Part shown: piece after piece, positions 1 through 18,621 of the stretch | Numbering within the stretch: the stretch's first letter is position 1 | Layout of the letters: the number at the start of each line of letters is the position of its first letter | Virus record (IMG/VR): IMGVR_UViG_3300020579_000029 | Span: 1 to 29,533 of that record | DNA from: a virus | Direction: 5' to 3' (one strand) | Length of the DNA stretch: 29,533 nt | Translations under genes and position numbers: made by a program | Notes under the pieces: generated by a model | The model's input: the letters and a program-made list of their open reading frames with translations, nothing else | Told to the model about the DNA's origin: nothing | Databases searched by the model: none

Positions 1-788
1 TTGTTTATTACAAGTAAGTGTGTAGGCCACCCAGCCTGCGGATTGAAAGTGGCTCCCCAGATAGGCGAATACAGCCCTGGACTGATGGTCACCGTAGACC
101 CACTGATCCCAGTAACAGTCACGGTCTGCGTCTGACTATTACCTGCCGGGCCATTCTGGCCCCCCGACTGCGAACAATCGGGCAAAGCACCACTCGTCTC
201 ACAGTTCCAGATCGTCCCTGGATCAGTCGGCTGATCGGCCTGCCACAGTAAAAGTAGGTCACCAACCTGCAGGTTCGTGGTGTTCGATAGGGTAATAGAT
301 GTAGCACCCTTGGCATACCCAGCAGTCCAGTTAGCAGTGCCAGCCAAGTTACCAAAGGCGGGCGCCTGGATATCACCATTCATGATGCACACGCCCCCAC
401 CCAGGCCCCAGCAGCCTGTACCAGGACCAGTCGTATACTTTACTACGGTCTGATCAGCCCCCATACCCTTTATAACAGTATTGGACTTGCCAGCGAAGTC
501 TATTCTACTATTCAAATAAAATGTCCCCGTACCCAACAGCACATACTGATTAGCACCACAAGCGGCTATAGCACTATTTATAAAAGCTGGCGACCCTGGC
601 GACCCTAGTGTCCCATAGGGTGCAATCGTCGTACCGCACTGGCTCCAGCCCGCATCCGGTATACCGCCCACTACTCCAGCAGCGGACCAGTCAATGGCCC
701 TGCTAGGGTCGATGACTCCAACCCAAGCCTGTCCCCAGGCCGCCTGAGCACATAACATACACAGTAATATAAGTACTAACTGTCTCAT
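1..788 (-). CDS. Exported beta-helix (pectate-lyase-3-like) protein, 3' part missing
   Basis: The frame is open from the ATG at 788 to the window edge (262 codons), so the C-terminus is missing. The N-terminus is a good Sec signal peptide: MRQ, then a Leu/Ile/Cys-rich core, then AAWG|Q as the likely cleavage site near residue 19. The mature part starts like phage and bacterial pectate-lyase-superfamily proteins: a segment resembling INSAIAACGANQYVLLGTG (about residues 68-86) is followed by FYLNSRIDF and a VIKGMGADQTVVKY-type rung, the usual first turns of a right-handed parallel beta-helix. Such domains bind or cleave host polysaccharide in tail spikes. The ATG overlaps the TGA of the preceding gene (ATGA), so translation is probably coupled. 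It is the last gene seen in the fibre/depolymerase block. The fold is inferred from pattern; the signal peptide is seen directly. Confidence 0.75.
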   Translation of the reverse strand, partial: MRQLVLILLCMLCAQAAWGQAWVGVIDPSRAIDWSAAGVVGGIPDAGWSQCGTTIAPYGTLGSPGSPAFINSAIAACGANQYVLLGTGTFYLNSRIDFAGKSNTVIKGMGADQTVVKYTTGPGTGCWGLGGGVCIMNGDIQAPAFGNLAGTANWTAGYAKGATSITLSNTTNLQVGDLLLLWQADQPTDPGTIWNCETSGALPDCSQSGGQNGPAGNSQTQTVTVTGISGSTVTISPGLYSPIWGATFNPQAGWPTHLLVIN

Positions 789-2158
789 CAGTGTGCCTGC
801 AGCGCCAATGCATACGCCTCAATCGTTCCACTTGTAGCAGTCCAGGTTGCTGGGGCCGTCAGCGATCCCGTGGTGATGCCAGAGCCAAAACCGTCTCCAA
901 AGTTACCGGCGGTGCCATCATAAGTGAACCCTGTGCCTGTCAGTCCGCTTATGTTAGCAGTCCCCCCAGATAGCACAATAATAAAATTAGGGTTACCTGA
1001 AAGCGTGAGCGGCACCCCTGCGCACGACGTACACGTGGTGTCAGCAACTTTGTTGGCAGGGTTAGACCCAGCATCAATTGCAATAGTCGTCAGTGGAGGT
1101 ACTGCCTCCCACACAACAACATCGGCCGTACCGCCGCCAAACGAAGTAATCGGCTGGCTAAAAGATGTTACTCCACTTACCGACTGCGTACAATAATAAG
1201 CATCAAGCGTATTACCCGACCCAGCTGCAGGAGCGTTTGGGCCATGAATCCACGCCACGTTACAGGCTCCAGCGGGAGGCGCCCCCATCGTAGCTGCCGC
1301 ATTCGACAACATGGCCACTACTAGAGCATGGTTTGCCCCAGTAGACGCCAGAGTCACTACACACGGAGTCACTGTACAGCCAGCAGATATATGTGCCACC
1401 TGCGTCTTCGACCACGGGCCCGGATTCGTTGACGACCCACAGGACACAGCCATAGGGTTATTTAACTGTAGCCCTACGCCATCATCCAGCACAATCATAA
1501 TAGTCTTATTAGGCGACGTGAGCGGCCAGTCGCTGGCTGCCAATGGCAATCCGCCACACTTAGTTACGTTCCACACGCCCCCGCCAATGTTAAGTGTCAT
1601 GGCCCCAGTGTTTGATATCCCAGCAAACATGTTATAAGCCTGCCCTGGCACGTGCCCAGTGACCGGTGGCTGTATCGTAACTGTCTGAGCGTTAGCAGTG
1701 CCCGCAGTGGTCGGCAGTCCAGGACAGCCATTTATAGGATTAGCCAAATTGAGCACAACATTGGTGGCATCGTACTGAGCATACGCAGTAGGGTTAGGCT
1801 GGATGTCGCCATTCACAAGGGGCAGCGTGCCACACTTAGTTATGGGCACAGCCGCCAGGCCATCAACAGTGAGCGTAGTGCCAGGGCCAGTGTTCGTAGC
1901 CACAGGTGCCCAGCTGACCCACTGTCCATTGGTCCACGACGTTATGACAGGCACAGTGGTCACAGTCTGTACCTGAGCTGTACCACCTCCTATACCAAAG
2001 GGAATGCCTGACCCAGTACCGCCACCCACACCCCCCCTAACTTGGGTAGGATCAATCTGTGTGTTACCCTGCCCCCAACTAGTAGAGGGCCAGCACAACA
2101 CTAGAAGTGATTGGAGCAGTATTAAAAGTAACAGTGTTACCCGACAGCGTATAGTCAT
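788..2158 (-). CDS. Exported cysteine-containing beta-sandwich fibre-like protein
   Basis: This is a 456-residue protein if started at the ATG at 2158, which follows GGGGGAGGTA. An upstream in-frame start at 2182 would add eight residues before the hydrophobic stretch. Residues 1-29 look like a signal peptide: MTIRCR, a long Leu-rich core, then STSWG|Q. The rest is Gly/Thr/Ala/Val-rich with evenly spread cysteine pairs, as in all-beta secreted or fibre proteins. The C-terminal ~200 residues resemble the 257-residue protein at 6492-7265: a NHALVVAML strand, a YYCTQSVSGV segment and a VVVWEAV motif where the other has AAEYSG. The first 80 bases are overprinted on the 3' end of the preceding fibre gene in another frame. 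I recognise no enzyme motif. Role in adsorption or at the host surface is inferred from context. Confidence 0.7.
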   Translation of the reverse strand: MTIRCRVTLLLLILLQSLLVLCWPSTSWGQGNTQIDPTQVRGGVGGGTGSGIPFGIGGGTAQVQTVTTVPVITSWTNGQWVSWAPVATNTGPGTTLTVDGLAAVPITKCGTLPLVNGDIQPNPTAYAQYDATNVVLNLANPINGCPGLPTTAGTANAQTVTIQPPVTGHVPGQAYNMFAGISNTGAMTLNIGGGVWNVTKCGGLPLAASDWPLTSPNKTIMIVLDDGVGLQLNNPMAVSCGSSTNPGPWSKTQVAHISAGCTVTPCVVTLASTGANHALVVAMLSNAAATMGAPPAGACNVAWIHGPNAPAAGSGNTLDAYYCTQSVSGVTSFSQPITSFGGGTADVVVWEAVPPLTTIAIDAGSNPANKVADTTCTSCAGVPLTLSGNPNFIIVLSGGTANISGLTGTGFTYDGTAGNFGDGFGSGITTGSLTAPATWTATSGTIEAYALALQAH

Positions 2159-2753
2159 TACCTCCCCCAGGATTCTGCACAAGCCCGTTCAGTAATACCA
2201 CCACAAACTGGTTAGCCACCGGCGTGATCGCTAGCGTAAACACCTTGTTGACCCCATTGACTGTACCTGTGACCGCATGCAATCCAAGGTGCGTAAGCGT
2301 CGTGGTGCCACTAAAAGTGTTATTACCTGTAAAAGTGTTGTTGGCGCCCAGCATAGCGTTCCCGACCCCGGCGCCCGCAAACGACGCTGCCGCAGCCTGC
2401 ACCGCCGCCGAGATATTCATAGACGGCCCTGAGATGGTCAACTTAAGGCTGAACGCAGGCGGCTGCCCCACGCCCACTGGATTAGACGCAGCCACAAACG
2501 TAAATAGCCACTGCGTCCCTACAGCTCCTGACTGTGCCGCTATGACACTATTGTCAGGCAGGTCCACAGTGAACGCCCCAAAGCTGTCCATGTCACCCGC
2601 ATAGACATGGGTAATAATGCTGGCATTGATCAGCGGTGTCTTACCAGGCGTGCCTGGGTCGATAAAATTAGCCGTCCAATCGCCATTAGCGTAAGGCACG
2701 CCATTGGGATCGAGCACCGTAGCGCTTACTGTAGTGAACCCAGGTCCTGCGAT
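2079..2753 (-). CDS. Short tail-fibre protein with an apparent AUC start codon
   Basis: The protein has 224 residues if started at ATC 2753. The N-terminal ~85 residues are a paralogue of the start of the SGNH spike at 4493: the spike reads MAGFGFTTV and this gene reads (ATC)AGPGFTTV. Both continue with PYANG.W.ANF, PGTPG.TPLIN and FTVDLPDN. ATC 2753 aligns with the spike's ATG and lies eight bases after AGGAGG, so it is the best start. The next conventional option, GTG 2717, would cut twelve conserved residues and has no SD. Residues ~125-150 carry an ANNTFTGNNTFSGTTTL repeat common in phage fibres. The C-terminus (VNGVNKVFTLAITPV, NGLVQNPGG, DYTLSGNTVTF) is a known kind of small beta domain of phage tail proteins. 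The spike's TAG stop is in the same frame, so readthrough is an alternative. Confidence 0.75.
   Translation of the reverse strand: MAGPGFTTVSATVLDPNGVPYANGDWTANFIDPGTPGKTPLINASIITHVYAGDMDSFGAFTVDLPDNSVIAAQSGAVGTQWLFTFVAASNPVGVGQPPAFSLKLTISGPSMNISAAVQAAAASFAGAGVGNAMLGANNTFTGNNTFSGTTTLTHLGLHAVTGTVNGVNKVFTLAITPVANQFVVVLLNGLVQNPGGGNDYTLSGNTVTFNTAPITSSVVLALY
2496..2753 (-). repeat. Duplicated fibre N-terminal domain (partner copy at 4239-4493)
   Basis: The first ~85 codons of this gene and of the SGNH spike are recognisably the same at protein and partly at DNA level, including matching stretches around PYANG, PGTPG, TPLIN, VYAG and FTVDLPDN. It is probably the conserved domain that anchors alternative fibres or spikes to the tail. 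Duplication followed by swapping of the distal domains is inferred. Confidence 0.7.
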
Positions 2754-2760
2754 ATAGCTA

Positions 2761-2767
2761 CCCTCCT
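2761..2767 (-). promoter_or_regulatory. SD preceding the AUC start at 2753
   Basis: On the minus strand the sequence reads TAGGAGGGTAGCTATATCGC. The TAG is the stop of the SGNH spike gene and overlaps AGGAGGG, and ATC follows AGGAGG by eight bases. This SD decides the start in the absence of ATG, GTG or TTG at a usable distance. Confidence 0.7.
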
Positions 2768-4493
2768 AGGGTATCTGCTGTATTATGTTGCGAATAGCTA
2801 ACGCTAAACGTCTTGTCACGTAGGCTGTGCCTAAGTCGGTTGGATGGACGGTATCGCCACTGATATAGGCATCCGCGTTTCCTGTGCCACTTGGAGACGT
2901 GACAGTCCCCGTGCCGGTAATCCAGGGCGCTACTACGGGATCGCCGTTCACGGGAATAAAATAGGTATTTGGATCGTTAAATTGAGCAACGCCAGCCTTC
3001 ACTGAGTTTTCGTCCCGCGTGATGTTTGCGGAACCCCCATTGTTGGGGGCGTCGGGGAGAATGCCACTCACAATAATCGGCACGGAGGGCAATCCCGCTC
3101 GAATTTGCTGCAGTGTGGATAAAACGGCAGCCTGTATTCCAGGCACGTTAACGTCATTGATGCTTGCCGAAACCACAACGAGGTCGGGACTGGCCGGGAT
3201 CACATCATAAACGATTCGCTGCGGATAGCTGTATTGCGCACCGCTGGCCGTGGAAACAAACCCAGTGCCACCAGTCGAGTCGTTCCACACATCGCTCCAG
3301 CCAAGCAGATAGCCGATCTGATGGGGAATGGTCGCATCGACCAGCGATACACCGTTATCGATACTGTCCCCCACCCACACTACACGAATGCGATCCTGTG
3401 TTGGTGGCTGCCAAACACTTTCGGTCGGACCTACGAGGACGCCTTCGAACACATTGTTATTGTGGAATGCGACCGTGATTGTGCGATTCTTGCGTGCTCC
3501 TGCGTTAGTGAAGTCCATCAAGACATAAGAGGGATTAGAGCCGGTCCCGGCTAGGTAGCCAGAAATCGTCACATATTGCCCGTCCACAATGTACCGAATC
3601 GATTGCTGTGCGCTGTTAACTTTGATGGAAACCTTCGTGGCATCGGTAACAAATGTGACGGCGAATCCAGTCGAGGCATTCGGTCCAGGAGTCGCATTAA
3701 TAGATGCCGCCCATAGCTGATAGCCCGGTGACCCCGTGATATGCAGAGTTCCTTGGGTCAAATAGAACGGCGAAGGAGTCGCGTTGTAGGCGTAGACGTT
3801 CGTCAGCCCACCAGGAGCGCTGGCCGATGTGGTAATCGCAGGCTGGATCGACTGAGCCGCAGCGGGAACGGAGATTCCGTAGTAGGACCATGTAACGGTG
3901 CCATCCACAATCGGTGCCATGCCCTGGCCACTTGGTCCAGAGGCTCCCGATGTGCCAGCAATGACACAAATATATTGGTATCCAGCTATCGAAACGACCT
4001 GGCCCACCTGATAGGCGGTAAGGGTTACCCATGCGGGGGCGGGGCCGAGCGGAGTGTTTATCACTGGATTGTTTATAGCGGCTATGGAGGCCACACGCCT
4101 TAGCAGTGTCCCAATGCTGGTTAACCGTGGCACAAATGGCTGCACTGCTGCCGATATATTTTGTGTCGCCCCAGTGATCGTAAGTGTGACTGCAGATGTA
4201 GATATGCTAAGGCTCGTAAGTGTAGCCTTAGACTCGAACGCAAAGCGCCACTGCGTGCCTATGGCCCCAGTCTGTGTACCTATGACAACGTTATCCGGGA
4301 GGTCTACTGTAAAGAACCCCACGTTGTTCATGGTGCCAGCATATACAGTGGTAATGGAGCTGCCGTTGATTAACGGTGTGACCCCAGGCGTACCTGGATT
4401 GACGAAGTTTGCGGACCACGTACCGTTAGCATAAGGCGTCCCTGAAACGTCCGCGATAGTGCCAGTTACTGTGGTGAATCCGAAGCCAGCCAT
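2766..4493 (-). CDS. Tail spike/fibre with C-terminal SGNH (GDSL-type) hydrolase domain
   Basis: A 575-residue protein starting at ATG 4493 after TAAGGAGGCTAA. Residues 1-~85 are the shared fibre N-terminal domain. Residues ~153-206 (AWVTLTAYQVGQVVS, YICVIAGTSG, DGTVTWSYYG) look like the small carbohydrate-binding-type modules common in phage fibres. From ~365 there is an SGNH hydrolase with all four blocks visible: GDS with nucleophile Ser377, a glycine in STGGTG (~409), SIND with Asn446, and DTVHP with Asp547 and His550. The family hydrolyses ester bonds, often removing acetyl groups from polysaccharides, so the likely role is deacetylation of host surface glycan during adsorption. The substrate is not known. 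The C-terminal part looks compositionally unlike the N-terminal domain, suggesting module exchange. Confidence 0.88.
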   Translation of the reverse strand: MAGFGFTTVTGTIADVSGTPYANGTWSANFVNPGTPGVTPLINGSSITTVYAGTMNNVGFFTVDLPDNVVIGTQTGAIGTQWRFAFESKATLTSLSISTSAVTLTITGATQNISAAVQPFVPRLTSIGTLLRRVASIAAINNPVINTPLGPAPAWVTLTAYQVGQVVSIAGYQYICVIAGTSGASGPSGQGMAPIVDGTVTWSYYGISVPAAAQSIQPAITTSASAPGGLTNVYAYNATPSPFYLTQGTLHITGSPGYQLWAASINATPGPNASTGFAVTFVTDATKVSIKVNSAQQSIRYIVDGQYVTISGYLAGTGSNPSYVLMDFTNAGARKNRTITVAFHNNNVFEGVLVGPTESVWQPPTQDRIRVVWVGDSIDNGVSLVDATIPHQIGYLLGWSDVWNDSTGGTGFVSTASGAQYSYPQRIVYDVIPASPDLVVVSASINDVNVPGIQAAVLSTLQQIRAGLPSVPIIVSGILPDAPNNGGSANITRDENSVKAGVAQFNDPNTYFIPVNGDPVVAPWITGTGTVTSPSGTGNADAYISGDTVHPTDLGTAYVTRRLALAIRNIIQQIP

Positions 4494-4515
4494 TTAGCCT
4501 CCTTACACTATAATG

Positions 4516-4659
4516 TTAATAACGTCCCTTCCCCTTGCGTGCCTTGCGCCCCTTGCCACGCTTCCCGGAGCGCTCACGGCCCTTGCGTCCACCAAAGTTC
4601 ATCTCGCTGCCCTTGCCAAACAAGTCACGGTCGGTCTCTTCTAACGACGGCTTAGCCAT
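4516..4659 (-). CDS. 47-residue very basic Lys/Arg/Gly-rich protein
   Basis: An intact small gene between the beta-helix gene and the SGNH spike. ATG 4659 follows CCAGGAGGCACC, an excellent SD, and the TAA is at 4516. The first 20 residues are mixed and acidic (MAKPSLEETDRDLFGKGSEM). From residue 25 on nearly every residue is Lys, Arg or Gly, with GRKGRERSGKRGKG and KARKGKGRY blocks. No known family is recognised. The composition suggests binding to nucleic acid or to an acidic surface, but nothing shows which. It resembles in style the small basic genes at 9097, 22473, 22600 and 26446. The SD and position in the operon argue that it is translated. Confidence 0.65.
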   Translation of the reverse strand: MAKPSLEETDRDLFGKGSEMNFGGRKGRERSGKRGKGRKARKGKGRY

Positions 4660-4677
4660 GGTGCCTCCTGGTTAAAT

Positions 4678-6495
4678 TTACCGATGTACAGACTGTCCGC
4701 CCATAATCATTGCGCCGCCGCGAACACTGGTTGCGCCTGGAATTTGAAATGATGATCCGAACTCCACAGCACCCATACTAGGCGTGAACGGAGACACCGT
4801 AGTGTTCCAAGGGAAGCCATTGTAATCAACTGTCAGGCCCCCGATAGTTACTCCCGCGTACTTAGCCGGACTGCCGGAAGTGATAGTAAAATTGAAGTTG
4901 TCTAGAGCAGATTCCGCCGAGATCGGTGTCGTTGGCTCGCTGACAAACAATGGATCGGAGCATGACTCGTTGGAGAACCCGGTTGTAGGGCATCCCGTGT
5001 TTCGCATATTGAACAGCAGATTATTATTTCGTGTGGTGAAGTTACTCGATGAAATCCCCGGACCGGAGTAGCTGATTACTCCGGGCGTCAGGCCGCTGTT
5101 ATAGCTGGCTTCTGAGAATCCCATCATTAGCACGTTCTCCATGATGAACGAGGGGCCGGATGAATTACAGCTTACGTCCCGGCAAACGAAGTCGATCATG
5201 GTTGCGCCATAACCAACAAAAGTGTCGTTCTGGAGAGTCAACGTACTTGCATGAATCATCTCGAAGGCATTTTGATCTCCAGCGGCTCGGCAGAAGTCCG
5301 ACAGGTACGTGTTAAACGTGGATGGGATTCCTGCGAAGGTCGCGGACATTCGCTTACAGTTCCCGATGCTAACACTGTCAATCACACTGGCGTTCGTAAC
5401 TGCACCTTCCTTGAATTGCTGGCCCATATTGCCGTAGGCGATGGACCGAGAGACAGAAACGGTCCCTCCCGTGACATGAAGCAAATCGAAGCCGTCCTGT
5501 GTGTTGTAACGGAAAATACATCCAGTGCAAGTGAAGTTTAGCGGTGTGTCCGGCGTCCCCACTCCGTCTCCATAGCCAGTGCTGCCATCGTCGTAACAGG
5601 AGATCGCGGGAATCGCGTCCACAATGGGATACTCTTCGTTGCAGCCGTTCCACTCAATCGTCAAGCCAGTGGCATTGACTTGACCGCTCGAACTCATAGT
5701 CCCTAGACCGTCGTCAAAGTTCCACCCAGACCCACCATTGAAACCAATCCGTAACCGGGTAGCAGTTACCGTGCCCCCGATAGGACCAAGAATCCCATTG
5801 TTCGCTAGGCCGTGGATGTTCACATCTTGAAACAGGATGTCATGCGTGGTCGTATAAGTACGAATGCCAGAAATAGCGAAGTCATCGAAGGGAAGATTGC
5901 CGCTACAGAAACTCGGAAAGACCGGAGTGCCCAACTTAATGCACTGCGCGTGGTCGGTGATCTCAAGGCACAGGAAATCCGTAAACGCTGCATTGGTCAG
6001 GTCCCATACCCAGTCAATTCCGAACCCCCCGAAGGTCTGCGTCTTGGTCGCGCAATTGGCCCAATTCTCTCCCACGATGCGCGTGTGCTGTCCTGACGTT
6101 CCAGCCGGAATCGGCAGCGCATACATATGGTCATTGCCAAGACCGCCGTTGCTATAGTTGAAGAAAGTATGTCCTTGATTATCGACTGCCCCAATTCGCC
6201 ACGGTCCGCCACGGATGAAGTAGGTGTCACCGCCCGCGCCAATCCACGCGCCTGCCGCAGTGTTATTGGCCCATAAGTAGCGCACATCTCCGAAAGCGCA
6301 GGCTTGATTGGTTCCGCTTCCAGGGTCGTCCACATCCGCTGCACCGGAACATCGCCCGGTAGGATTGTTGGCAGCATCATAACGTGTCCCGCCGTTTGTG
6401 CGAACGTACCAGCAGTTTCCGGTGCCTGAGCCTGTGCAGGTTGCCGCTAACGAAATGCCAGGAGTGAGAGCTAATATGATTATTATCAGCTTCAA
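4678..6495 (-). CDS. Exported cysteine-rich right-handed beta-helix protein
   Basis: A 605-residue protein with a TTG start at 6495 that overlaps the TGA of the previous gene (TTGA) and follows GGGGGTCGGAGA. Residues 1-17 form a clear signal peptide (MKL, Ile/Leu core, GISLA|AT). The body shows repeated short beta rungs with Asn/Gly turns, such as LTIEWNGCNEEYP, CTGCIFRYNTQDGFDLL and VSRSIAYGN, typical of a parallel beta-helix. The end (SPAKYAGVTI, VDYNGFPW, PSMGAVEF) is a common C-terminal cap of secreted bacterial beta-helix proteins. Many cysteines are spread through it, fitting disulphides formed outside the cytoplasm. Likely role: polysaccharide binding or cleavage at the cell surface; no catalytic residues can be assigned. 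Whether it is in the virion is uncertain. Confidence 0.78.
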   Translation of the reverse strand: MKLIIIILALTPGISLAATCTGSGTGNCWYVRTNGGTRYDAANNPTGRCSGAADVDDPGSGTNQACAFGDVRYLWANNTAAGAWIGAGGDTYFIRGGPWRIGAVDNQGHTFFNYSNGGLGNDHMYALPIPAGTSGQHTRIVGENWANCATKTQTFGGFGIDWVWDLTNAAFTDFLCLEITDHAQCIKLGTPVFPSFCSGNLPFDDFAISGIRTYTTTHDILFQDVNIHGLANNGILGPIGGTVTATRLRIGFNGGSGWNFDDGLGTMSSSGQVNATGLTIEWNGCNEEYPIVDAIPAISCYDDGSTGYGDGVGTPDTPLNFTCTGCIFRYNTQDGFDLLHVTGGTVSVSRSIAYGNMGQQFKEGAVTNASVIDSVSIGNCKRMSATFAGIPSTFNTYLSDFCRAAGDQNAFEMIHASTLTLQNDTFVGYGATMIDFVCRDVSCNSSGPSFIMENVLMMGFSEASYNSGLTPGVISYSGPGISSSNFTTRNNNLLFNMRNTGCPTTGFSNESCSDPLFVSEPTTPISAESALDNFNFTITSGSPAKYAGVTIGGLTVDYNGFPWNTTVSPFTPSMGAVEFGSSFQIPGATSVRGGAMIMGGQSVHR

Positions 6496-7265
6496 TCTCC
6501 GACCCCCGCGGTCCCACCAATGCCTCCCAAGCCCCCAAAACCACCACCTCCCGCTCCGGCTGACACCGCCGGATAAGATACGGTATAGTAGACGAATCTC
6601 GTACCAGAAATAGTGACCCCTGTCAGAGTGCCGGTTCCTATAAATCCTCCGGCACTGACATTCAGTTGTTCTTCGATCATCAAATTAGCGCTTGCAGCCG
6701 AATCGTCGCTGCCAACCAGTGTCCAGCTTCCGGCAGCAGCCCACGTATTCGATGTGTCAAGCGTTGCCCCGCAACCAGACAGAACCAAGTTACCGGCAGT
6801 AGCTGTATAAGAACCATTGGTCCAAGTATTAGTGGCGCTCTCGAAACCGGACATGCCAGTAACAGCGGTATTCACGGGAGTCGCTGTTAGAGAGACCCCG
6901 CTGTACTCAGCGGCACAGAACCCAAGCAGTCCTCCGTTGTTGCCTGTCACGGAAATGGTGATCGTGGTTATGCTGCCTGTATTATCCAGGCGGAACATAG
7001 CAACCTGTACGTTATCGGCTACTGGGCCTGCATCTAATGTCATGCCAGTACCGCTGGCAGTTACTCCGGTGATCGTCCCAATTGCCGGAGTAGATACCTC
7101 CACCACGAAGAAGTTTCCGCTTGCTGTTGTCCATCCCGTTGCGTGCGTGACCGCTCCACCAGATATACTCAAGCTGCCGAAGCATCCCTGATTCACTCGG
7201 GCAATCGCTCCCCAACACGGCCCCGCGATGAACAGCAATCCGAGAGTAAGAAGTAGGCGTCTCAT
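6492..7265 (-). CDS. Exported small beta-sandwich protein with Gly-rich tail
   Basis: A 257-residue protein; ATG 7265 overlaps the TGA of the upstream gene (ATGA). Residues 1-19 are a signal peptide (MRR, LLLTLGLLFIAG, PCWG|A). The mature part is Thr/Gly/Ser-rich with alternating beta strands: NFFVVEVST, VQVAMFRLDNTGSITTITIS and GFCAAEYSGV. The pattern of a variable-residue strand followed by an EYSG motif recurs in exported bacterial and phage proteins. The last ~25 residues are almost only Gly and Ala (AGAGGGGFGGLGGIGG), possibly a flexible linker or adhesive tail. It shares the domain type with the C-terminal half of the gene at 788-2158. No enzyme motif is visible. It could be a fibre tip or a secreted adhesin-like factor. 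Confidence 0.68.
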   Translation of the reverse strand: MRRLLLTLGLLFIAGPCWGAIARVNQGCFGSLSISGGAVTHATGWTTASGNFFVVEVSTPAIGTITGVTASGTGMTLDAGPVADNVQVAMFRLDNTGSITTITISVTGNNGGLLGFCAAEYSGVSLTATPVNTAVTGMSGFESATNTWTNGSYTATAGNLVLSGCGATLDTSNTWAAAGSWTLVGSDDSAASANLMIEEQLNVSAGGFIGTGTLTGVTISGTRFVYYTVSYPAVSAGAGGGGFGGLGGIGGTAGVGD

Positions 7266-9094
7266 CTCACCATCCCAAGCATCTGCGTGTAAGAGTTGCT
7301 CGCACCGACGACTGATTGAGCTATGGTGAAGTCGATGAAAAGCGCCGCCGTCAAGTCAATAGTCGCGGAGACGGCGATATTGGCATCCGCGATCACAACA
7401 TCCGGCGTAGAAACAAGCGCTCCTGTATCGAGCGTCAGATTCCCCTTGAGCGCGAGGGTGCCGGTTGTTCCGATTGCGGAAGTCACTGCCGTAGTGACGA
7501 TGTTATAAGTGGCATTGGTGATCGCGGTTGTGTTCAGGGCTGGAGTGACCCAGCTTCCCAGAGTTACGACCGTACCTGAACCGCATCCGCTGATCGTACA
7601 AAGTTTGATCCTAAAGGTAAGTACCGGACTCGAAGCGGCTGTACTGGAATAGATTCCCCCGCCGTTGATCTCAAATGGCTGACTTAGGGTATTGAAACAT
7701 CCTGCGGGAATGGACAACTGAATAAGGTTCTGATCGGTATTGATCGTAGGATTAGAGCTGGTAACTGCCACTGCACTAGCTACGGGAGCGCAACTGCCGT
7801 TTATCTTGGCTGGAAGATCGGCAGCAACAATAGGAGTAATGGTCTCGGTGATGACGTTCGCAGCGTTGACGTAGTGAGGTATACCAGTACTGGCCGCTCC
7901 AGCCAGATTTATCAGGTAACCTGTAACGGATATGGGAGCTTGTATACAGATGGTGTTTGCTATATTGCAGGGGTCAACCGCCGCACTTGTCGTACCTTGA
8001 GCGAAGGCCATAAATCCGGCAGTTGTACCAGTAGCCTCAAAAACAGGACTCTCTACACCGCCAGTTCCCGTATAAGAAAGGGTAGTCCCATCATCAGTAG
8101 CTAGGGAATTTGCAACGCCTTGCGCCCCGCCCGAACCTTTCGGCAACACGTTATTCGTGATGGCGGCAGCGGATGTGACGCAGGTGGGGCAGTCAGCGCC
8201 GACTATGGCACTAATCGTTTCTGTGATCGTTGGCGCTGAATAAGAATAATGTGGAATGCCCGTTGATGGCGTGACCGCATACAATCCGTGATAACTCGTC
8301 ACTCCAGACGCTGGTGCTTCCCAACACACGCTGCCCGCTGGTTGCTTCGCTACGCAGTTGTCGGCACCTTGCACAAGGGCGTCGAAGCCTGCGCCTGTGC
8401 CGGTGCCTATGAATCCTGGGGCTGCGATACCGCCTGTGTCGGTACAAGTTAGGGTGTTCGCTGTGGTGACGCCATTGTCGCAGAGGCTATTCGTGGGAGC
8501 GCCCCCTGCACCTCCACCTTGGACTAAAACGCCTGCGTTAAGGATACCCGATGACGATTCCGAGGTCGCGGAGTTGAAGTAGGGTATGCCTCCAGAAGTC
8601 ACTGTACCGCTAACAGTTTGTGGGAACACGGGAGCGGCCCCGCCCCCACCGCCCCCGCCAGCACGAGCGGAGACGGTGGCTTTGCGGATGGTGGCGGTTA
8701 CTGTGCCTGAGGTGGCGGTAGTAAACACCATGCATACGTTTGTATAAGCTGCTACGTTTACCTGCCACACTCCAGCTGCTGTGGCTGTGGTCACGGGAGT
8801 TGTGCTGTTGGATGGGAATACGTTTAGGGGTGCCCACGTGAGAGCGCCATCTGCAGACCCGAAGAAGCTTACGGTCCCGGAGAAGGGTGAGGCGCCTATA
8901 GTGAATGTAGCACCACCGGCGTTCATGGTGGCGAGCGTTAGGGCTGATGTGGATGCTGACTGTTGCCCAGGGCTCACGGGGCATGCGGCTGCTTGGGTAG
9001 TCAATGGACCCACAACGAAGTCTTGCTGCGCAGCGGCTACACCAGCGATGCCAAACAGTAGCAGGCCCAGGAGTAATATACGTATACGCAACAC
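7262..9094 (-). CDS. Exported tail-fibre-like protein with two internal repeats
   Basis: A 610-residue protein if started at GTG 9094, five bases after AAGGAGG; an in-frame GTG at 9100 lies inside the SD and is unlikely. Residues 1-22 are a signal peptide (MLRIRI, Leu/Gly/Phe core, GVAAA|QQ). Residues ~145-153 are a poly-Gly linker. Two copies of an ~80-residue unit follow (about 222-302 and 347-429): APGFIGTGTGAGFDALVQG matches SPVFEATGTTAGFMAFAQG, and STGIPHYSYSAPTITETI matches STGIPHYVNAANVITETI. The C-terminal ~170 residues (PAGCFNTLSQPFEINGGG, VLTFRIKLC, SYTQMLGMVR) look like a fibre-tip beta-sandwich. Repeats and domain style point to a fibre; the signal peptide is unexpected for one. 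Confidence 0.75.
   Translation of the reverse strand: MLRIRILLLGLLLFGIAGVAAAQQDFVVGPLTTQAAACPVSPGQQSASTSALTLATMNAGGATFTIGASPFSGTVSFFGSADGALTWAPLNVFPSNSTTPVTTATAAGVWQVNVAAYTNVCMVFTTATSGTVTATIRKATVSARAGGGGGGGAAPVFPQTVSGTVTSGGIPYFNSATSESSSGILNAGVLVQGGGAGGAPTNSLCDNGVTTANTLTCTDTGGIAAPGFIGTGTGAGFDALVQGADNCVAKQPAGSVCWEAPASGVTSYHGLYAVTPSTGIPHYSYSAPTITETISAIVGADCPTCVTSAAAITNNVLPKGSGGAQGVANSLATDDGTTLSYTGTGGVESPVFEATGTTAGFMAFAQGTTSAAVDPCNIANTICIQAPISVTGYLINLAGAASTGIPHYVNAANVITETITPIVAADLPAKINGSCAPVASAVAVTSSNPTINTDQNLIQLSIPAGCFNTLSQPFEINGGGIYSSTAASSPVLTFRIKLCTISGCGSGTVVTLGSWVTPALNTTAITNATYNIVTTAVTSAIGTTGTLALKGNLTLDTGALVSTPDVVIADANIAVSATIDLTAALFIDFTIAQSVVGASNSYTQMLGMVR
7808..8431 (-). repeat. Two divergent ~80-codon repeats inside the fibre-like gene
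   Basis: Copy one spans about 8189-8431 and copy two about 7808-8056, separated by a TTNNVLPKG-type linker. Both contain GTGTxAGF.A..QG, STGIPHY and ITETI..IV.AD at the same spacing. The copies are clear in protein but diverged in DNA, so the duplication is not recent. Confidence 0.65.
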
Positions 9095-9287: not shown

Positions 9288-11174
9288 TTAGAGTGGGCCT
9301 ACTTTGCCTTGGCCGCCTAGGCGCTTGACTAGGTTCTCGAACTCTTGGCGCTGTGCGTTTTCACGCATGGCTTTCAGCAATGGCCCTATAGCCCATGGTG
9401 GTACTGATGTTGGGCCAGGCGCAGGTGGCCCAGCTGCTGGTGGAGCGGGTGGTGCTGAAGGAGGTGGGGCAGCAGTAGGGGGACTAGCTGCTGAGGGAGC
9501 CCCACCCCCTCCTGTTGGGGGAACTGGTCCAGTAAATGGTCTAAGCTGTTCACCACGCCCAGAGAGCCAGTCTCTGTAGGCGGGCTTGTCGAGTAGACTA
9601 ATGCCTAGTTGGCGTCCGAGTGCTCCACGGGTACGGAACTGGCCTGGGACCATTTCTGCTAGGGACGACGATTGAGATTGCTGACGTAGCTTATTTTGTA
9701 ATTGTTGCTCGCGCCATTCTACGTTGCCGGGCCATTCTGGAACGGGCTTAGGTTGGCCTCCTGGAGCGCTGGGCAGGTCGTTCATGGTGCGCACCAGTGA
9801 GCGTATGGAGCTGGCCAAGGCAGGGCTGCTGTATTTATCCAGTATGCCAGCTACCTTATCGTTCAGGTTATATTTCTGGAGCACACGCATGCGGCCCTCG
9901 GGGGTGTCAGAGTCAATCAGTTGGCGTACGGGGGCGCCAGGATCGTTGAACGATTCCATGAAGTCTGTGTAGTCACTTTTAAGTTGGCGGTATGCGGGGC
10001 CACTGCCTGCAGCATCGTGTGCGGCGCCCATCGCTTCTCCTAAAGGCTTCTGTATGGATACCAAAGCGCGGTAATTTTGGCCAGCATCTGGGCCACTTAC
10101 CTTGGCTGCTGCCTCCCCTAGGCGTGTGTAGATACCTTGGGCCTTGGCATAGGGTACGTCGCCTAGTACACCACTCATGGGGGTGATAGCTGCTGGGTCT
10201 AGAGGGGTGCGTAGGGTGTCCATGTAACTGGAAGGCACCCCTGCCTTATGTAGGGCAGTGCGGAACTCTTGTTGCAGGCCAGCATTGTTCAAGCCTTCAT
10301 GCGTATCCCTTATGGCTGCTTCAACTTTGGACCAGTCTATCGGCGTGCTGGGGCCGATGGAAGCATGCATATCGGCCCACTTCTTATTGAACTCTTTGCG
10401 GACATCCTTGCTGGCAGTCTCAGCTAGATCGCCAATCTGGTCGGCGCCGTGCGAGGCCATTTCGTCCATGAGGCCCCTGCCAGTCTGTTGGCGCTCAAGG
10501 GTGGCGTTCTCACCGATTACGTTGCTGGCTTGTTCGTTTACGTTTTGGAGAGCTGAACGACGGGCAGGTTCGCCTACACCCTGAAAGCGGCGCATCATGG
10601 GGCGTAGACCTGTGGTGGCGGCCATCTCACCTACTTTGGGAGCGGCCTTCAAGGCTAGCATGGACCAGGCTGAGTTCAATAGACTGCCTGCACTACCTGC
10701 GTAGTCACCCTTGGCGGACTGTTCCATGCTGCGGACTGTTGGGGCACCTACGTAGGGGACCGCACCCACAAGACCTTCAGCGACTCCAGCAGCCTTGTTG
10801 GCTATACCAGGTTGTGCATAACGTTGGGCTGCTACACCCTTGGTCTCACGCCAGCTAGCTGTGGGGTCCAGGCCACCTATAAACTGCTTAGCACCCTGAC
10901 CTAGAGCTTTGAGCGGATGCTGGTTCATCTGCTCTAGGTCAGCAATGTTACCTTTGAGCGACGTGTCTACGTTCTCGGGCATGCCGACGCTTTGCGTTAG
11001 AAAGCGCTTTACAGCCCCAGGCTTGGGAGGAGCTACAGTCTCGACATAAGCATCACCGTGCTTAGTCCAGTACTTACCTGTGTCAGGGTCAAACCATATT
11101 GGACCCTGCTGGACAGGTTCACTGTGGCTACTGATACCGGTGGCAAAGGAGTCTGGGCTTTGTTGTGGAGGCAT
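9288..11174 (-). CDS. Large internal virion (ejection-like) protein
   Basis: A 628-residue protein starting at ATG 11174, which overlaps the preceding TAA (TAATG) with AAGGG seven bases upstream. It opens with a short WFDPDTGKYW segment (residues ~27-36), then long Ala/Gly/Lys/Gln-rich helices. A more hydrophobic stretch at ~125-180 contains GLVGAVPYVGAP and LLNSAWSMLALKAAP. Residues ~540-595 are a Pro/Gly/Ala linker (PPTAAPPPSAPPAPPAAG) before a short C-terminal helix with VKRLGGQGKVGPL. It is the last and largest of four genes between the 138-residue protein and the fibre block, where T7-like phages encode the core proteins gp14-gp16 that are injected into the cell. There is no transglycosylase motif I can recognise. 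The ejection role rests on position and composition. Confidence 0.65.
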   Translation of the reverse strand: MPPQQSPDSFATGISSHSEPVQQGPIWFDPDTGKYWTKHGDAYVETVAPPKPGAVKRFLTQSVGMPENVDTSLKGNIADLEQMNQHPLKALGQGAKQFIGGLDPTASWRETKGVAAQRYAQPGIANKAAGVAEGLVGAVPYVGAPTVRSMEQSAKGDYAGSAGSLLNSAWSMLALKAAPKVGEMAATTGLRPMMRRFQGVGEPARRSALQNVNEQASNVIGENATLERQQTGRGLMDEMASHGADQIGDLAETASKDVRKEFNKKWADMHASIGPSTPIDWSKVEAAIRDTHEGLNNAGLQQEFRTALHKAGVPSSYMDTLRTPLDPAAITPMSGVLGDVPYAKAQGIYTRLGEAAAKVSGPDAGQNYRALVSIQKPLGEAMGAAHDAAGSGPAYRQLKSDYTDFMESFNDPGAPVRQLIDSDTPEGRMRVLQKYNLNDKVAGILDKYSSPALASSIRSLVRTMNDLPSAPGGQPKPVPEWPGNVEWREQQLQNKLRQQSQSSSLAEMVPGQFRTRGALGRQLGISLLDKPAYRDWLSGRGEQLRPFTGPVPPTGGGGAPSAASPPTAAPPPSAPPAPPAAGPPAPGPTSVPPWAIGPLLKAMRENAQRQEFENLVKRLGGQGKVGPL

Positions 11175-12105: not shown

Positions 12106-12107
12106 AC

Positions 12108-12854: not shown

Positions 12855-12855
12855 G

Positions 12856-13827: not shown

Positions 13828-16236
13828 TCAGCTAATAGTTATGGGCCGTCCTGTGGGCCTAGGGACAACCATCCAATCAAAACTGTCTAGCTCTACTCTG
13901 CCACTGCCTTGGATAATGCAGGCGGCTGACGTTGCTACTCGCAGGGGGCGCATACCTACGTCTAATTGGAACTCTTGGCCGGGGCCACCTAAGCCTGGGT
14001 TAGTGTAAGTGCGCATCAGAGCCGTCACGGCTGGCAACTGCGATACCCTATCCAGCACAGGTAGCACTGTAGGTAGTATAAAATTAGCGGGCACGATGGC
14101 GTTGTTTGTGCCCCTGACGAGTAGGCGCCGCAACATAAACCTGTCTGTAGGGCTCTTACCGATGACCTCGGCAGTGCGCACGCTCCACTGTACAGGTAGC
14201 GATCCAAAGTGAGAGGCCCAGTTTTCGTCACCCGCCTGCCAGCGCTGGATGTTGCCGAAGCTGTCGGCAAATAGTGTTACGGGTAGGGAGTCGCCGGGAC
14301 GTAACATAATCATGGCGTTGACTAGGTCGCCTATGCCGTTGAACCAGTTGAGGGTCGTCCAGGCCCGCAGAGTCAGGTCGAACACGAACGCAGTCTTCAT
14401 GTTGCCGAAGACGTTATTGAAGTTGTCGAGGGTAGGATAGGTGGCTACGTAGGTGGCTGGAGCTACGGTCTGGCAGGCCCAGCACCGGTAGGCGAAGGCC
14501 CAGTTGAGCGGGTTGATGTCGGTGTTCAGGGAGTTGCCATCGAGTGTTTGCTGGGACTGGTCCAGGAATATAAATGGGCGTAGTTCTTCGCTCAGTAATC
14601 TGTCGCGTACGCCGTCGAATACGGCCCAGCCCAGGTGAGTCAGGCGCACGATGCCGAAGCCCGGTACAAACTGTATGGTGCGCGGGGCGATGCAGCCCAT
14701 GTCGGTCTGGGCTTGCTGGATCGTAAAGTTAGTGGCCCCGAATACGCCCGTGATCTGGTAGGTGCTGAAGTCTTTGAACACTACCAATGAGCCTGTGGGG
14801 ATGATGCCGCTTTCGGCTATCGTGAACACAGCCATGCCCGTGATCTGGCTGCCGTCGCCGTGGCCCAGGAACGCACTGTTCACGTCGGTCCAGCTGTTGG
14901 GATTGTTGCTGTTGGACATGCGCAGGGCTGAGGGGCCGTCTATGCCGTCGGGTAGGTCGTATGGAGCTGTGTTACCTACCCACAGGGAGCCTGCGTATAC
15001 GACTCCTGCGGCAGCACCTGGAGGTGCGGTACCTGAGCCTCCTGTCAGGGCTGTAAGTTTAGTGCCATCGAACTGCATGGGCGGGTAACCGTTGCCCAGG
15101 ATCAGTATCTGCTTGTTGATGAACTGGATCATGTACGAGATGGGCATGATTGTGCCCTGGATGCCACCGAAGGGTGTCCAGATAATGTTTACGCCTGAGA
15201 ACTGGTAGGTGCCGTCGTACTCCCCTGGGTAAGGCTGGATGCTGTTGAATGCTGTGGCTGGCAGGTCGGCTATGGCGTTGGCTGCACTGTAGGTATTACC
15301 CGTGCCGGTGCCGGTCATGGAGTAGAACGTAGTGGTGGTAGCTGTGTTGGTGACTGGGGGAGCTATGTTAGGGAACGGCAGGGCGTTGCCTAGGTCCCAC
15401 AGCGTCACTAGGCCCCCTGGATTAGTGTTGGGCACGTAGCCGCTGACGAGTTTCTCGGTGCCTGAGCTGGTGGAGCGGTACAGTAAGAAGCCTGCTGCTG
15501 ACAGGGGAGCGTTAGCGATGGTAATTTTAGTCTGGTTGTTGGCGCCCCCAGGAGTCAGGGAGATTTCGTTGGACGGTAGAGTGGTGCCTGACGTGATCAG
15601 GCCGATGCTCAGTAGCTCGGCGGTGTCTATAGGCTTATCGACGGCGACGACTTTGTAGAAGTAAGTTGTGGCCGGGTTCAGCAAGCCAGGTGACACGCTG
15701 CCACCCGTCGATGAGGCGTTGGGACCAACTTGAGTCACCGTGAATGTGCTCGTGGTGGGGATGGAAAGTATTATAAAGTTGCCGTTGAACGTGCTATCTG
15801 CGAAGCCAGTGATGTTTACTAGGGTGCCTACAACGGTTAGGCTGTGGACGCCGCCGGTTGTGTAGGTAGTTGTGCCGTAGGAGCCACCTACGCCAGATGT
15901 GGGGTTGACACGTACGGCTGTGACGCCGCCGACACCTGCATAGGCTGCTGAGCTACCACCTATGACTGGGGCAGTACCTAGGCGCCCTGTGGTCTGGCCT
16001 AGACCTGTTATGTACACAGAAGACACAGTAGGTTGGTATGCGCCTATGGAGAAGAACTGGTTAGTGACTAGGGGGCTGAACACTAGTTCTGAGCCATGGC
16101 ATGTTACGAGGCTGCCACGGTGTGTGAGCAGCATGTTCGATAGGCGTGCCACGCTTCCCTTAGGTTGCAGGGTATGGGACGTGCTGGCGTTCATGCCCCT
16201 AATGAAGCCGGATTGCGAGATGGGTTGGATGGCCAT
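13828..16236 (-). CDS. Tail nozzle (tail tubular protein B-like)
   Basis: An 802-residue protein whose ATG 16236 overlaps the preceding TAA (TAATG) without a good SD. The N-terminus (FIRGMNASTSHTLQPKGSVA, then MLLTHRGSL) has the podoviral nozzle style in which the chain starts by threading along the tail. Residues ~60-370 are Thr/Gly/Ser-rich beta domains. Residues ~485-555 show the most recognisable stretch: LVVFKDFSTYQITGVFG, then MGCIAPRTIQFVPGFGIV, then GWAVFDGVRD and LSEELRPFIF, as in propeller blades of T7 gp12-like and related nozzle proteins. It would form the distal tail tube below the adaptor encoded just upstream. The function is inferred from these motifs and from gene order. Confidence 0.75.
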   Translation of the reverse strand: MAIQPISQSGFIRGMNASTSHTLQPKGSVARLSNMLLTHRGSLVTCHGSELVFSPLVTNQFFSIGAYQPTVSSVYITGLGQTTGRLGTAPVIGGSSAAYAGVGGVTAVRVNPTSGVGGSYGTTTYTTGGVHSLTVVGTLVNITGFADSTFNGNFIILSIPTTSTFTVTQVGPNASSTGGSVSPGLLNPATTYFYKVVAVDKPIDTAELLSIGLITSGTTLPSNEISLTPGGANNQTKITIANAPLSAAGFLLYRSTSSGTEKLVSGYVPNTNPGGLVTLWDLGNALPFPNIAPPVTNTATTTTFYSMTGTGTGNTYSAANAIADLPATAFNSIQPYPGEYDGTYQFSGVNIIWTPFGGIQGTIMPISYMIQFINKQILILGNGYPPMQFDGTKLTALTGGSGTAPPGAAAGVVYAGSLWVGNTAPYDLPDGIDGPSALRMSNSNNPNSWTDVNSAFLGHGDGSQITGMAVFTIAESGIIPTGSLVVFKDFSTYQITGVFGATNFTIQQAQTDMGCIAPRTIQFVPGFGIVRLTHLGWAVFDGVRDRLLSEELRPFIFLDQSQQTLDGNSLNTDINPLNWAFAYRCWACQTVAPATYVATYPTLDNFNNVFGNMKTAFVFDLTLRAWTTLNWFNGIGDLVNAMIMLRPGDSLPVTLFADSFGNIQRWQAGDENWASHFGSLPVQWSVRTAEVIGKSPTDRFMLRRLLVRGTNNAIVPANFILPTVLPVLDRVSQLPAVTALMRTYTNPGLGGPGQEFQLDVGMRPLRVATSAACIIQGSGRVELDSFDWMVVPRPTGRPITIS

Positions 16237-17537
16237 TATGGGATCACGAAGCGTCCAAAGTTGGTGCCCCCAAACACAGTGAACTCACCGCCGTGCTGGC
16301 TGATCTGCACGGGGCCAGCTAGTTGACGGTTGGTGCGTGCCCACATTTGAACTTGGGACTGATAGGCTTGCATGGCTTGTTGGCTGCCTTGGGCGTCCCC
16401 TTCCGCAGCCCTGGCGCGTGCGAGCATGTACCAGCTGAGCATGCTGTCCCAGCCGCTGGGGATAGGTAGGATGCTAGTACTAGTACCTGGGGTGTACTGC
16501 GCTGTAACTATTAAGCTGCCGTGGAGTGTCAGGTTAAGTTCAGCGACCAGGGTACCTGCGGGCCAGCCCAGAGCCAGTGTGCCACTGAGGCCCCTGACTA
16601 GGCCGTTTATGGTATTCCCACCTAAGTTGGAATAGCTAACGACCTCTGTGCCGATCTGTGCTAGGCCGAATGGCAGTACGAATCTAGCTGAGCCAGTGAC
16701 AGTTATGCTGGTGTCAGTGGGGGCGGCTGCCACTGCTAACATGGTGGACCCAGCGGTGCGTGCAGGCTGCGGCCAGTTTTCTATGATTAGGCGGTTATCG
16801 ACTACGGCTGCGGTAGCGATGTCTAAGATTGAGCTGGTGACTGTGTTGCGCTTGAAGAAGCTCTGACGGTTGCCTAGGCTCATGGGCCAGCCGTCGTACC
16901 AGATGTCGGTGATCTTGGTCCACTCGCCTGGGAGGACGTAGTTCATTTGACCAGCGACACTGGAGACACCGGTGTAGTTTGGCAGGCCCCCTACGGTCTG
17001 ACTGATTTCGCGTAGGCCCAGGGTTAGCCACCTGAACAGTGTACCAGCTGCGAATGTCTGGCCGTCCTGGTCGGGGACGTAGGCTGTGCTGCGTATTGGA
17101 GGGACTCCTGGGATGCCTGGTTGGGATATGACTACTACGCCAGTGGTGTCAGCCTGGCCTACCCATACGTTTTCGCTGCCTGCAGCGGCGTTTACGGCTG
17201 TGAAGTAGGCACGCATGCCTGACATTCCGGGGAGCACTGTGGTGGTTACTTGGATACCTTGACCGGCGCCTACCACTAGGCCGGTGACTTCGGCTGACGG
17301 GATGGTCTCACCGGCGGCGGTGGTTTGAGTGACCACGGTAGCGTAGGTGCCTGCAGGTAGGGTGGCGCCTGGGACACTGATTACGATAGAGGTGTTGGTG
17401 GGTGTGGCTGTCAGTAAGGGGGCTGGGTCGGGTATAAGTTCGCGTACGATCTGGATGATGTCACCGACACGTATGCCCCCGCCGAGGCCAGAGCCTACTC
17501 CAGAGCTTCCACCACTTGGGCCAAGTATTGGTGACAT
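16236..17537 (-). CDS. Tail adaptor / head-tail connector (tail tubular A-like)
   Basis: A 433-residue protein starting at ATG 17537, with AGGA eight bases upstream. A Gly/Ser-rich N-terminus leads into a helix (IIQIVRELIPD, ~26-36). A beta insertion follows (~40-160). A core follows with LFRWLTLGLREISQTVGG (~168-185), DIWYDGWPMSLGNRQSFF (~214-231) and VVDNRLIIENWPQPARTAG. The C-terminal helices are WDSMLSWYMLARARAAEGDA and QAMQAYQSQVQMWARTNRQ, a helix pair like that with which adaptors pack around the portal. It sits directly upstream of the nozzle gene, the T7 gp11-gp12 order. The central beta-rich inserts make it longer than T7 gp11 (about 196 residues), so a different connector class is possible. 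Confidence 0.65.
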   Translation of the reverse strand: MSPILGPSGGSSGVGSGLGGGIRVGDIIQIVRELIPDPAPLLTATPTNTSIVISVPGATLPAGTYATVVTQTTAAGETIPSAEVTGLVVGAGQGIQVTTTVLPGMSGMRAYFTAVNAAAGSENVWVGQADTTGVVVISQPGIPGVPPIRSTAYVPDQDGQTFAAGTLFRWLTLGLREISQTVGGLPNYTGVSSVAGQMNYVLPGEWTKITDIWYDGWPMSLGNRQSFFKRNTVTSSILDIATAAVVDNRLIIENWPQPARTAGSTMLAVAAAPTDTSITVTGSARFVLPFGLAQIGTEVVSYSNLGGNTINGLVRGLSGTLALGWPAGTLVAELNLTLHGSLIVTAQYTPGTSTSILPIPSGWDSMLSWYMLARARAAEGDAQGSQQAMQAYQSQVQMWARTNRQLAGPVQISQHGGEFTVFGGTNFGRFVIP

Positions 17538-17538
17538 G

Positions 17539-18621
17539 TTATGGTCCTAGGTACTCCAGGCGAATGTGGAGTGCGTATTGCATGGGTGTCGCCCCAGAAC
17601 TAGCATACCCAGCAGTAGAATATTGGATATTCGTACTCGCCTTAGCTGAGACTACATAGATTCCTGGAGACGTAGCTATAGGAAAGTTAGTATTCCCAAC
17701 TGTATTCCCACTTCCCCCAGATGCGGCTGGAGTACCAGTCTCAGCAGCACTGCTGTCAGCATCAGTCCAGGCGATGTTCACGCTAGGTAATGTTGACGAA
17801 CTGGTGGCTGCCTGCGTCAACACTTCATAAGCAGAAATGCGGTACACCCCGGCACCCCCAGCAGGCACCGCATAAAGTGTTGCTGTAGCGATGTTAGCTG
17901 CTTGTGTACTAAGGTTGACTTCAGCAATCGTGTAAGGAAATGCTAGCCCAGTTTGGCAATTAGTGCCGTCACAGGTTACCTCAGTAGAATTTTGAGGAAG
18001 AAGTGGAATTGATGCAACACCATCCAGAGTTCCGCTATCTGGGCTAAGTGTGACAATTGCCGTCCCTGTATTTTTAACGTGCCATATCTGCCCTGTAAGT
18101 AAATGCGGTATAGTTATCGTGGTCGTGCCAGTAACGTTGATCCAAGAGTCAAAAGCAGTCAGGGTATAAGGAGAGGATTTGGTGGAAATAGCAGCCGCTA
18201 ATCCAGCAAACAACTCCGTTCCACTATGGGTATTATTGCCCGTAAAAGAGATATTGCTTCCTGCCGATATACTTACCCCGCTCAATGTAATTGAATATGT
18301 ATAAGTAGGAAGTAATGATGCGGCTATGGAGATGTCGTATATGCCTGGGGCTGCCCAGAAATTTACGTTACCAAAGGTGTCCCCCAGGAAGGGGTTGGTC
18401 ATGGAGCCGAGGGCTGAGTTGGCGTAGAGTGTGGCCAACGTTCCAGTGCAGGGATTGGTAGGAGGCTGGACGTGGGCACACACAGTGACCGTAGGATTGT
18501 TAATGCCTCGGCCACCGCTGCCGAATGCTACTGTGTTATAGGGTACTACGGTTTGGGCATAACCTAGGGTGCTGCAGGCCAGTGTCCCCAACAGTAGAGT
18601 TAGTGTGTAAACCCACTTCAC
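17539..18621 (-). CDS. Exported fibre-like protein within the head-tail gene block
   Basis: The GTG at 18621 follows AGGGGGGAAGCA and gives 360 residues; an in-frame ATG at 18639 would start inside the SD. Residues 1-22 are a signal peptide (MKWVYTLTLLLG, STLGYA|Q). The first mature domain has VTVCAHVQPPTNPCTGTLA, TLYANSALG and FWAAPGIYDISI. This is the 'value, source, target' layout seen at the start of many exported or fibre proteins with P-x-ATLY-x-(D/N) motifs. Residues ~125-140 read ISFTGNNTHSGTELF, a fibre linker like that in the gene at 2079. The C-terminus is a further beta domain ending in ALHIRLEYLGP. Its place between the decoration-like gene and the adaptor is unusual for a fibre, and the signal peptide is unusual for a virion protein. 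Confidence 0.72.
   Translation of the reverse strand: MKWVYTLTLLLGTLACSTLGYAQTVVPYNTVAFGSGGRGINNPTVTVCAHVQPPTNPCTGTLATLYANSALGSMTNPFLGDTFGNVNFWAAPGIYDISIAASLLPTYTYSITLSGVSISAGSNISFTGNNTHSGTELFAGLAAAISTKSSPYTLTAFDSWINVTGTTTITIPHLLTGQIWHVKNTGTAIVTLSPDSGTLDGVASIPLLPQNSTEVTCDGTNCQTGLAFPYTIAEVNLSTQAANIATATLYAVPAGGAGVYRISAYEVLTQAATSSSTLPSVNIAWTDADSSAAETGTPAASGGSGNTVGNTNFPIATSPGIYVVSAKASTNIQYSTAGYASSGATPMQYALHIRLEYLGP

Follow-up and report, generated by a model that had tools for sequence, protein, structure and literature searches.

Predicted signal peptides and paired cysteines in the fibre blocks of Acidobacteriota phages suggest that tail fibres may be exported before assembly

We analyzed a 29,533-base contig of a soil virus (IMG/VR record IMGVR_UViG_3300020579_000029, positions 1 to 29,533; hereafter the window), which its gene plan identifies as a fragment of a podovirus (short-tailed phage), and found six genes, most of them in its fibre block, that encode proteins with predicted Sec signal peptides. 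The same trait is concentrated in the fibre blocks of its relatives and occurs in isolated phages of three tail types. As far as it can be judged from sequence, export of the fibre-block proteins is well supported and very probable. Tailed-phage assembly is taught as wholly cytoplasmic. We propose that the six proteins are tail fibres, spikes and polysaccharide enzymes linked to spikes, exported as a set, and we favour, with reservation, the presence of such exported fibres in virions.

An initial annotation had assigned signal peptides to these six open reading frames (ORFs), and all six were recovered, with starts and cleavage sites in agreement. On a rule-based scorer for Sec/signal peptidase I (SPase I) signals, which considers n-region charge, the hydrophobic core and small residues at -3/-1, all of them were positive (12.1 for 3-788, 9.3 for 788-2158, 10.7 for 4678-6495, 11.5 for 6492-7265, 13.2 for 7262-9094 and 8.4 for 17539-18621), while a single one of the other 28 predicted window genes scored, weakly (5.2). 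Applied to an annotated stretch of the E. coli K-12 genome, the scorer recovered six of six exported proteins (TolB, Pal, CpoB, YbgS, ModA and YbhC) and none of the cytoplasmic proteins. It was wrong on two membrane proteins, TolA and YbhI, and thus accepts membrane anchors as well. The genes have starts with plausible ribosome-binding sites (ATG 788, ATG 2158, TTG 6495, ATG 7265, GTG 9094 with AAGGAGGTG just upstream, and GTG 18621). The predicted +1 residue is Gln in four and Ala in two. Several mature parts are cysteine-rich, as had been claimed: cut at the originally proposed sites, they hold from 3 to 18 cysteines (Table 1), compared with 0-2 in most core structural genes. Pfam and PHROG searches returned no significant family match for any of the six (3-788 against PF12708, E 0.049, lay below the cut-off); in the window just two signal-less genes of the fibre block match fibre families or carry the shared N-terminal domain described below.

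Relatives were collected with the nozzle protein, which alone gave seven; an alignment of the eight then gave 63 loci, of which 56 are non-redundant, the window included. Across these 56, the share of plus-strand genes with a predicted signal peptide was 4.0, 2.8, 0, 0.8 and 0% in consecutive intervals between the head and the ejection genes, and 50, 58, 73 and 75% in those of the fibre block, so that prediction on the fibre genes of related phages, which had been suggested as a check, bears out the trait. The homologue of 7262-9094 in locus L002 (1263 amino acids, aa) also has a signal peptide. Another 11 signal-peptide genes lie upstream of the fibre block, among them genes for fibre-domain proteins that have a different genomic location (L006, L066, L070 and L091). 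Genes with signal peptides encode 2.05 cysteines per 100 aa, compared with 0.68 in the remaining genes and 0.05 in the late-ejection-gene interval. Within the fibre block the values are 2.02 and 0.79 (medians 2.0 and 0.09, p 1e-7), the signal-less class here including many ejection proteins and signal peptides missed by the scorer.

The fibre genes of these phages can be followed through a shared N-terminal domain (N-domain) of about 120 residues, for which an iterated profile matched 60 ORFs and 47 distinct copies were kept. The signal peptide ends right at the N-domain in 42 of the 47; in the other five (two in the window, two in L042 and one in L043) the protein is signal-less and begins at the domain. 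Signal-less copies occupy three places in the N-domain tree, where supported branches force at least two changes, and their nesting in one tree with the others indicates that the domain works with and without export. The structure model (45 sequences, pLDDT 86, pTM 0.80) is a beta-sandwich, and its closest viral models include the N-terminal parts of podovirus tail fibres and SGNH-esterase fibres of N4-like phages; solved structures, a cyanophage neck fibre among them, match it weakly. In L024 the signal peptide is followed by the N-domain and then by the pectate-lyase start of tail spikes (phrog_2234, E 1.7e-8; PF12708, E 2.3e-12), an order that ties the signal peptide to virion fibres.

The number of cysteines in the N-domain is even in all 47 copies (0 in three, 2 in 16 and 4 in 28), where column shuffling gave an expectation of 23.6 and a maximum of 35 even copies in 5000 shuffles. 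Cysteine columns are filled in pairs, one pair in 15 of 15 copies and another together in 21 of 24, with three exceptions, and on the tree the number changes at least 10 times, never to an odd value. Independent pairs were too few for significance in phylogeny-corrected sign tests, and the disulfide argument is therefore carried by parity and by these repeated changes. Gain and loss of cysteines in pairs is a mark of disulfides and hence calls for an oxidising compartment; read in this way, the paired cysteines support export independently of the signal-peptide predictions.

These observations also bear on whether the hydrophobic N-terminus could instead be a docking or membrane-contact helix that is retained in the virion. 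Fibres of short-tailed phages attach by their N-termini, and the scorer's acceptance of membrane anchors would be compatible with such a helix. The N-termini have clear c-regions and SPase I sites, however, with Gln at the predicted +1 position in 40 of 65 phage signal peptides; the same mature domains start at Met in signal-less paralogues, and paired cysteines make little sense in a reducing cytoplasm. We regard a retained helix as improbable.

Among 50,697 phage records, 4678-6495 has matches in Tunturi_1, 2 and 4 only, which were isolated on Tunturiibacter (Acidobacteriota), and 7262-9094 likewise matches Tunturi phages only. The podovirus Tunturi_1 has signal peptides on gp12, gp13, gp14 (the annotated tail spike), gp16 and gp17, with 10-32 mature cysteines in all of these but gp16; its portal, capsid, gp30, gp31, gp36 and gp37 have no signal peptide, and its annotation contains no large signal-less fibre candidate besides the signal-peptide set. 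The siphovirus Tunturi_4 carries the trait in gp113 and gp114, and also in gp111 when this gene (L010:14762-17857, PP885687) is read from a start before the annotated one. Its annotation begins at 15119 of the locus, but the ORF reaches back to 14762 and there encodes a signal peptide that the annotated start probably cuts off. The jumbo myovirus Tunturi_5 shows the trait in gp337, gp338, gp341 and gp342, three of which are annotated as tail fiber; the mature starts of gp337 and gp341 have a motif that is also present in the signal-less gp112 of Tunturi_4.

In 14 control phages, Bacteroidetes phages included, a signal peptide, a length of at least 350 aa and four cysteines came together in one gene, gp19 of the Burkholderia podovirus BcepC6B (L183:4960-6033), which is annotated as tail fiber and lies between the spike and holin genes; the scorer found no signal-peptide fibre in T7, P22, N4 or the LIT1 stretch. 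A signal-peptide homologue of BcepC6B gp19, orf035 of the Xanthomonas podovirus PBR31 (L184:832-1641), is annotated as putative structural and occupies the same position between spike and holin genes. These two genes weaken the idea that the trait is unique to phages of Acidobacteriota. A literature search turned up no virion proteomics for either BcepC6B or PBR31. Three of the six window starts are GTG or TTG, which could point to signal peptides that are artefacts of start choice, chance or composition. Their conservation over dozens of divergent phages of three tail types, together with their near absence from the control phages, refutes this explanation, to which we assign a negligible probability.

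The mechanism that we propose, and consider somewhat better than an even bet, is that fibres and spikes are sent out of the cytoplasm, undergo processing and oxidation beyond it, and at lysis dock on particles that were made within it. Each protein would pass through Sec, would be cleaved by signal peptidase I of the host, in most cases with Gln as the new N-terminus, and would fold with disulfide bonds outside the cytoplasm, while heads and tail stubs would be assembled in the cytoplasm as usual. Lysis would mix the compartments, and the fibres would dock on the particle through their N-terminal domains. We suggest docking because of the shared N-domain, the position of the genes and the fact that Tunturi_1 offers no other candidate for receptor binding. 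The step is plausible, since the P22 tailspike and T4 fibres are known to attach to completed particles in vitro. Late attachment after lysis, one of three options raised in the initial annotation, is thus the one that best fits the fibre domains, gene position and the Tunturi_1 gene set. A wider claim, to which we give about even chances, is that many Acidobacteriota phages of all three tail types make capsid and tail in the reducing cytoplasm and their receptor-binding fibres in the oxidising space of the envelope, and complete the particle when the cell lyses or later.

The main rival, above all for 4678-6495, is that the exported proteins are not virion parts; they would be depolymerases, adhesins or proteins that mask receptors, secreted to act before and after lysis on host polysaccharide or on neighbouring cells, and the true fibres would be other, signal-less genes. 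A number of findings weigh against the presence of exported fibres in virions. The fibre block of the window, although signal peptides on its genes stood up to analysis, is not wholly an exported set, as it also contains two signal-less fibre-like genes (2079-2753 and 2766-4493), which carry the N-domain and could be the true fibres. The six signal-peptide genes of the window lack this domain, and their virion membership therefore rests on position and relatives. The fibres of Tunturi_3 are signal-less, although this phage infects the strain on which Tunturi_1 grows; export is therefore not required by the host, and we rejected the idea that the host imposes the trait. Host homologues of 4678-6495 are plainly secreted proteins, not virion parts. 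The signal-less N-domains of L042 and L043 are still even in cysteine number, and the disulfide signal in any case speaks for an oxidising compartment, not for presence in particles. A known precedent, phage lambda Lom, is an exported protein encoded inside the tail-fibre region (PMC12309495).

Against this rival, the signal peptide directly fronts a fibre N-domain that other phages, in the same tree, carry without one. Every large fibre or spike candidate of Tunturi_1 has a signal peptide, and its particle would otherwise have no receptor-binding protein. There are also several large members per genome, of up to 2,479 aa, which is many for secreted enzymes. We therefore consider a purely non-virion role unlikely, though it is the alternative to be taken most seriously, and the secreted depolymerases of the initial annotation are a live possibility for some members. 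Virion docking and a role as secreted enzyme may both be true at once. The signal-less fibres L042:12945-17295 and L043:18423-22040 have many cysteines in the remainder of the protein as well; they may have lost the signal peptide recently or be exported by some other path, and the idea that cysteines are confined to signal-peptide proteins was rejected on their account.

Acidobacteriaceae genomes encode homologues of 4678-6495 beside glycosyltransferase genes (L030, L031, L033 and L036), often as tandem copies; these proteins have signal peptides and contain 18-20 cysteines. These chromosomal relatives are likely to be secreted polysaccharide enzymes, and the similarity raises the possibility that the 4678-6495 module came from, or went to, a secreted host polysaccharide protein. 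A structure model of this family from two sequences (pLDDT 27) was not used. A search of GTDB contigs with the fibre domain gave no match, and links to hosts were taken from the 4678-6495 family and a search of 297 Acidobacteriota genomes. Three of these genomes contain the N-domain. It follows a signal peptide in two of them, in one case in a gene preceded by a pair of cysteine-free ejection-like genes; in the third the protein is signal-less, and its gene comes after one that resembles a tape measure. Gln was predicted at +1 in 9 of 23 signal peptides of the host sample, and two of four Acidobacteriaceae genomes have a match to the glutaminyl cyclase family. The podovirus lineage most likely infects Acidobacteriota.

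The remaining explanation, offered in the initial annotation as prophage cargo, is that the proteins are lysogenic-conversion or moron products that alter the host surface. Exported prophage proteins are common, and signal-peptide fibre genes also occur in Acidobacteriota prophage remnants. One such remnant (L124-L125), however, keeps the phage order of ejection genes and then signal-peptide fibres, no integrase was seen in the window, and the same proteins make up the fibre block itself in lytic isolates. The Tunturi phages all form clear plaques, with titres of 1e8-1e9, and the paper describing them does not mention signal peptides or structural proteomics (PMC11924767). We consider cargo very unlikely.

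All genes listed for the window lie on the minus strand (Table 1). From the right end they run from the terminase large subunit through the portal, major capsid, adaptor and nozzle genes to a small acetyltransferase-like gene with the ejection proteins (9288-13422) and then the fibre block (1-9100). Terminase, portal and capsid were named by PHROG matches; adaptor, nozzle and ejection genes by position and weak matches.

Table 1. Features of the window discussed in the text; arrows mark predicted cleavage sites.
Feature	Coordinates	Strand	Observations
Fibre-block protein 1, partial, open at window edge	3..788	-	Signal peptide MRQLVLILLCMLCAQAAWG↓Q; 6 mature Cys; mature part weakly pectate-lyase-like
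Fibre-block protein 2	788..2158	-	Signal peptide ending SWG↓Q; 10 mature Cys
Signal-less fibre protein	2079..2753	-	Shared N-terminal fibre domain; C-terminal phrog_18673 tail fiber, E 3.4e-7; 0 Cys
Signal-less fibre protein	2766..4493	-	Shared N-terminal domain, CBM5/12-like module, GDSL esterase (PF13472, E 3.6e-9); 1 Cys
Secreted beta-helix-like protein (predicted)	4678..6495	-	Signal peptide ending SLA↓A; 18 mature Cys; related to Tunturi_1 gp17, Tunturi_4 gp114 and secreted Acidobacteriaceae proteins
Fibre-block protein	6492..7265	-	Signal peptide ending CWG↓A; 3 mature Cys
Protein in usual tail-fibre position, next after large ejection protein	7262..9094	-	Signal peptide VAAA↓Q; 14 mature Cys
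Ejection-block protein (by position)	9288..11174	-	No signal peptide; 0 Cys; border of fibre block
Nozzle/tail-tube-like virion protein	13828..16236	-	phrog_3287, E 9.2e-6; no signal peptide; query for collecting relatives
Adaptor/head-tail protein (by position)	16236..17537	-	No signal peptide; 0 Cys
Signal-peptide protein between capsid and adaptor genes	17539..18621	-	Signal peptide ending GYA↓Q; 4 mature Cys
Major capsid protein	19626..20606	-	phrog_9953, E 8e-22
Portal protein	24110..25837	-	phrog_156, E 1e-14
Terminase large subunit	26611..28353	-	phrog_2, E 3e-23

A single-protein search with 17539-18621 found no relatives in IMG/VR or among the 50,697 phage records. The same place between capsid and adaptor genes is taken in L006 by a signal-peptide protein with the shared fibre domain (L006:6792-7754), and these two proteins, away from the fibre block, are possibly head or neck fibres. 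The fibre domain of 2079-2753 begins before the first GTG. The ATC codon at 2753, which follows AGGAGGG at a distance of 7 bases and aligns with the Met of the paralogue, is a probable non-standard start, or else a sequencing error for ATG. The products of 19150-19599 and 28350-28856, which adjoin the capsid and terminase genes, have a D-G-E-G motif that by eye resembles LAGLIDADG homing endonucleases.

If our proposal is true, tailed phages have a second assembly route, which could be tested in existing plaque-forming isolates. Sibling particles would be able to share fibres, which before lysis could also work as secreted enzymes; shared between particles from different cells, the fibres would be a public good with consequences for host range. 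It would also account for the use of disulfide-stabilised spikes by soil phages and for the way in which such genes escape fibre annotation. For annotators and for work on depolymerases, fibre genes are worth checking for signal peptides.

Among 5.39 million open papers we came across no description of tailed-phage fibres exported through Sec, in a search that left subscription journals and preprints mostly outside; the nearest matches were signal sequences of endolysins, Lom and phage proteins that follow the Q-rule. Q-rule proteins of Bacteroidetes include five Porphyromonas gingivalis phage proteins of unknown function (PMC5837995, PMC10367356), and the Q-rule paper does not mention Acidobacteria. 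Signal-peptidase cleavage that exposes Gln on phage-encoded proteins is predicted for part of the proteins described here as well (40 of 65), but ours are putative fibres and spikes, in Acidobacteriota phages. Lom likewise is exported and encoded inside a tail-fibre region, but it is an outer-membrane host modifier, a single gene, and its mature part is without cysteine. BcepC6B gp19 and PBR31 orf035, with their structural annotations and signal peptides, come directly after the spike gene; unlike the sets described here, each is one small gene, next to a spike that in BcepC6B was shown to be signal-less, and the tests made gave no sequence relation. Tail fibres and spikes such as T7 gp17, P22 gp9 and the SGNH fibres of N4-like phages resemble the proteins of this lineage in their position after the ejection genes, N-terminal beta-sandwich and pectate-lyase and esterase modules, but are made and attached in the cytoplasm without a signal peptide. 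Filamentous phage pIII is an adsorption protein with a Sec signal peptide and disulfides that is finished outside the cytoplasm, as we propose for these fibres; it differs in being membrane-bound and extruded without lysis, in a phage that is not tailed, and has no known sequence relation to them.

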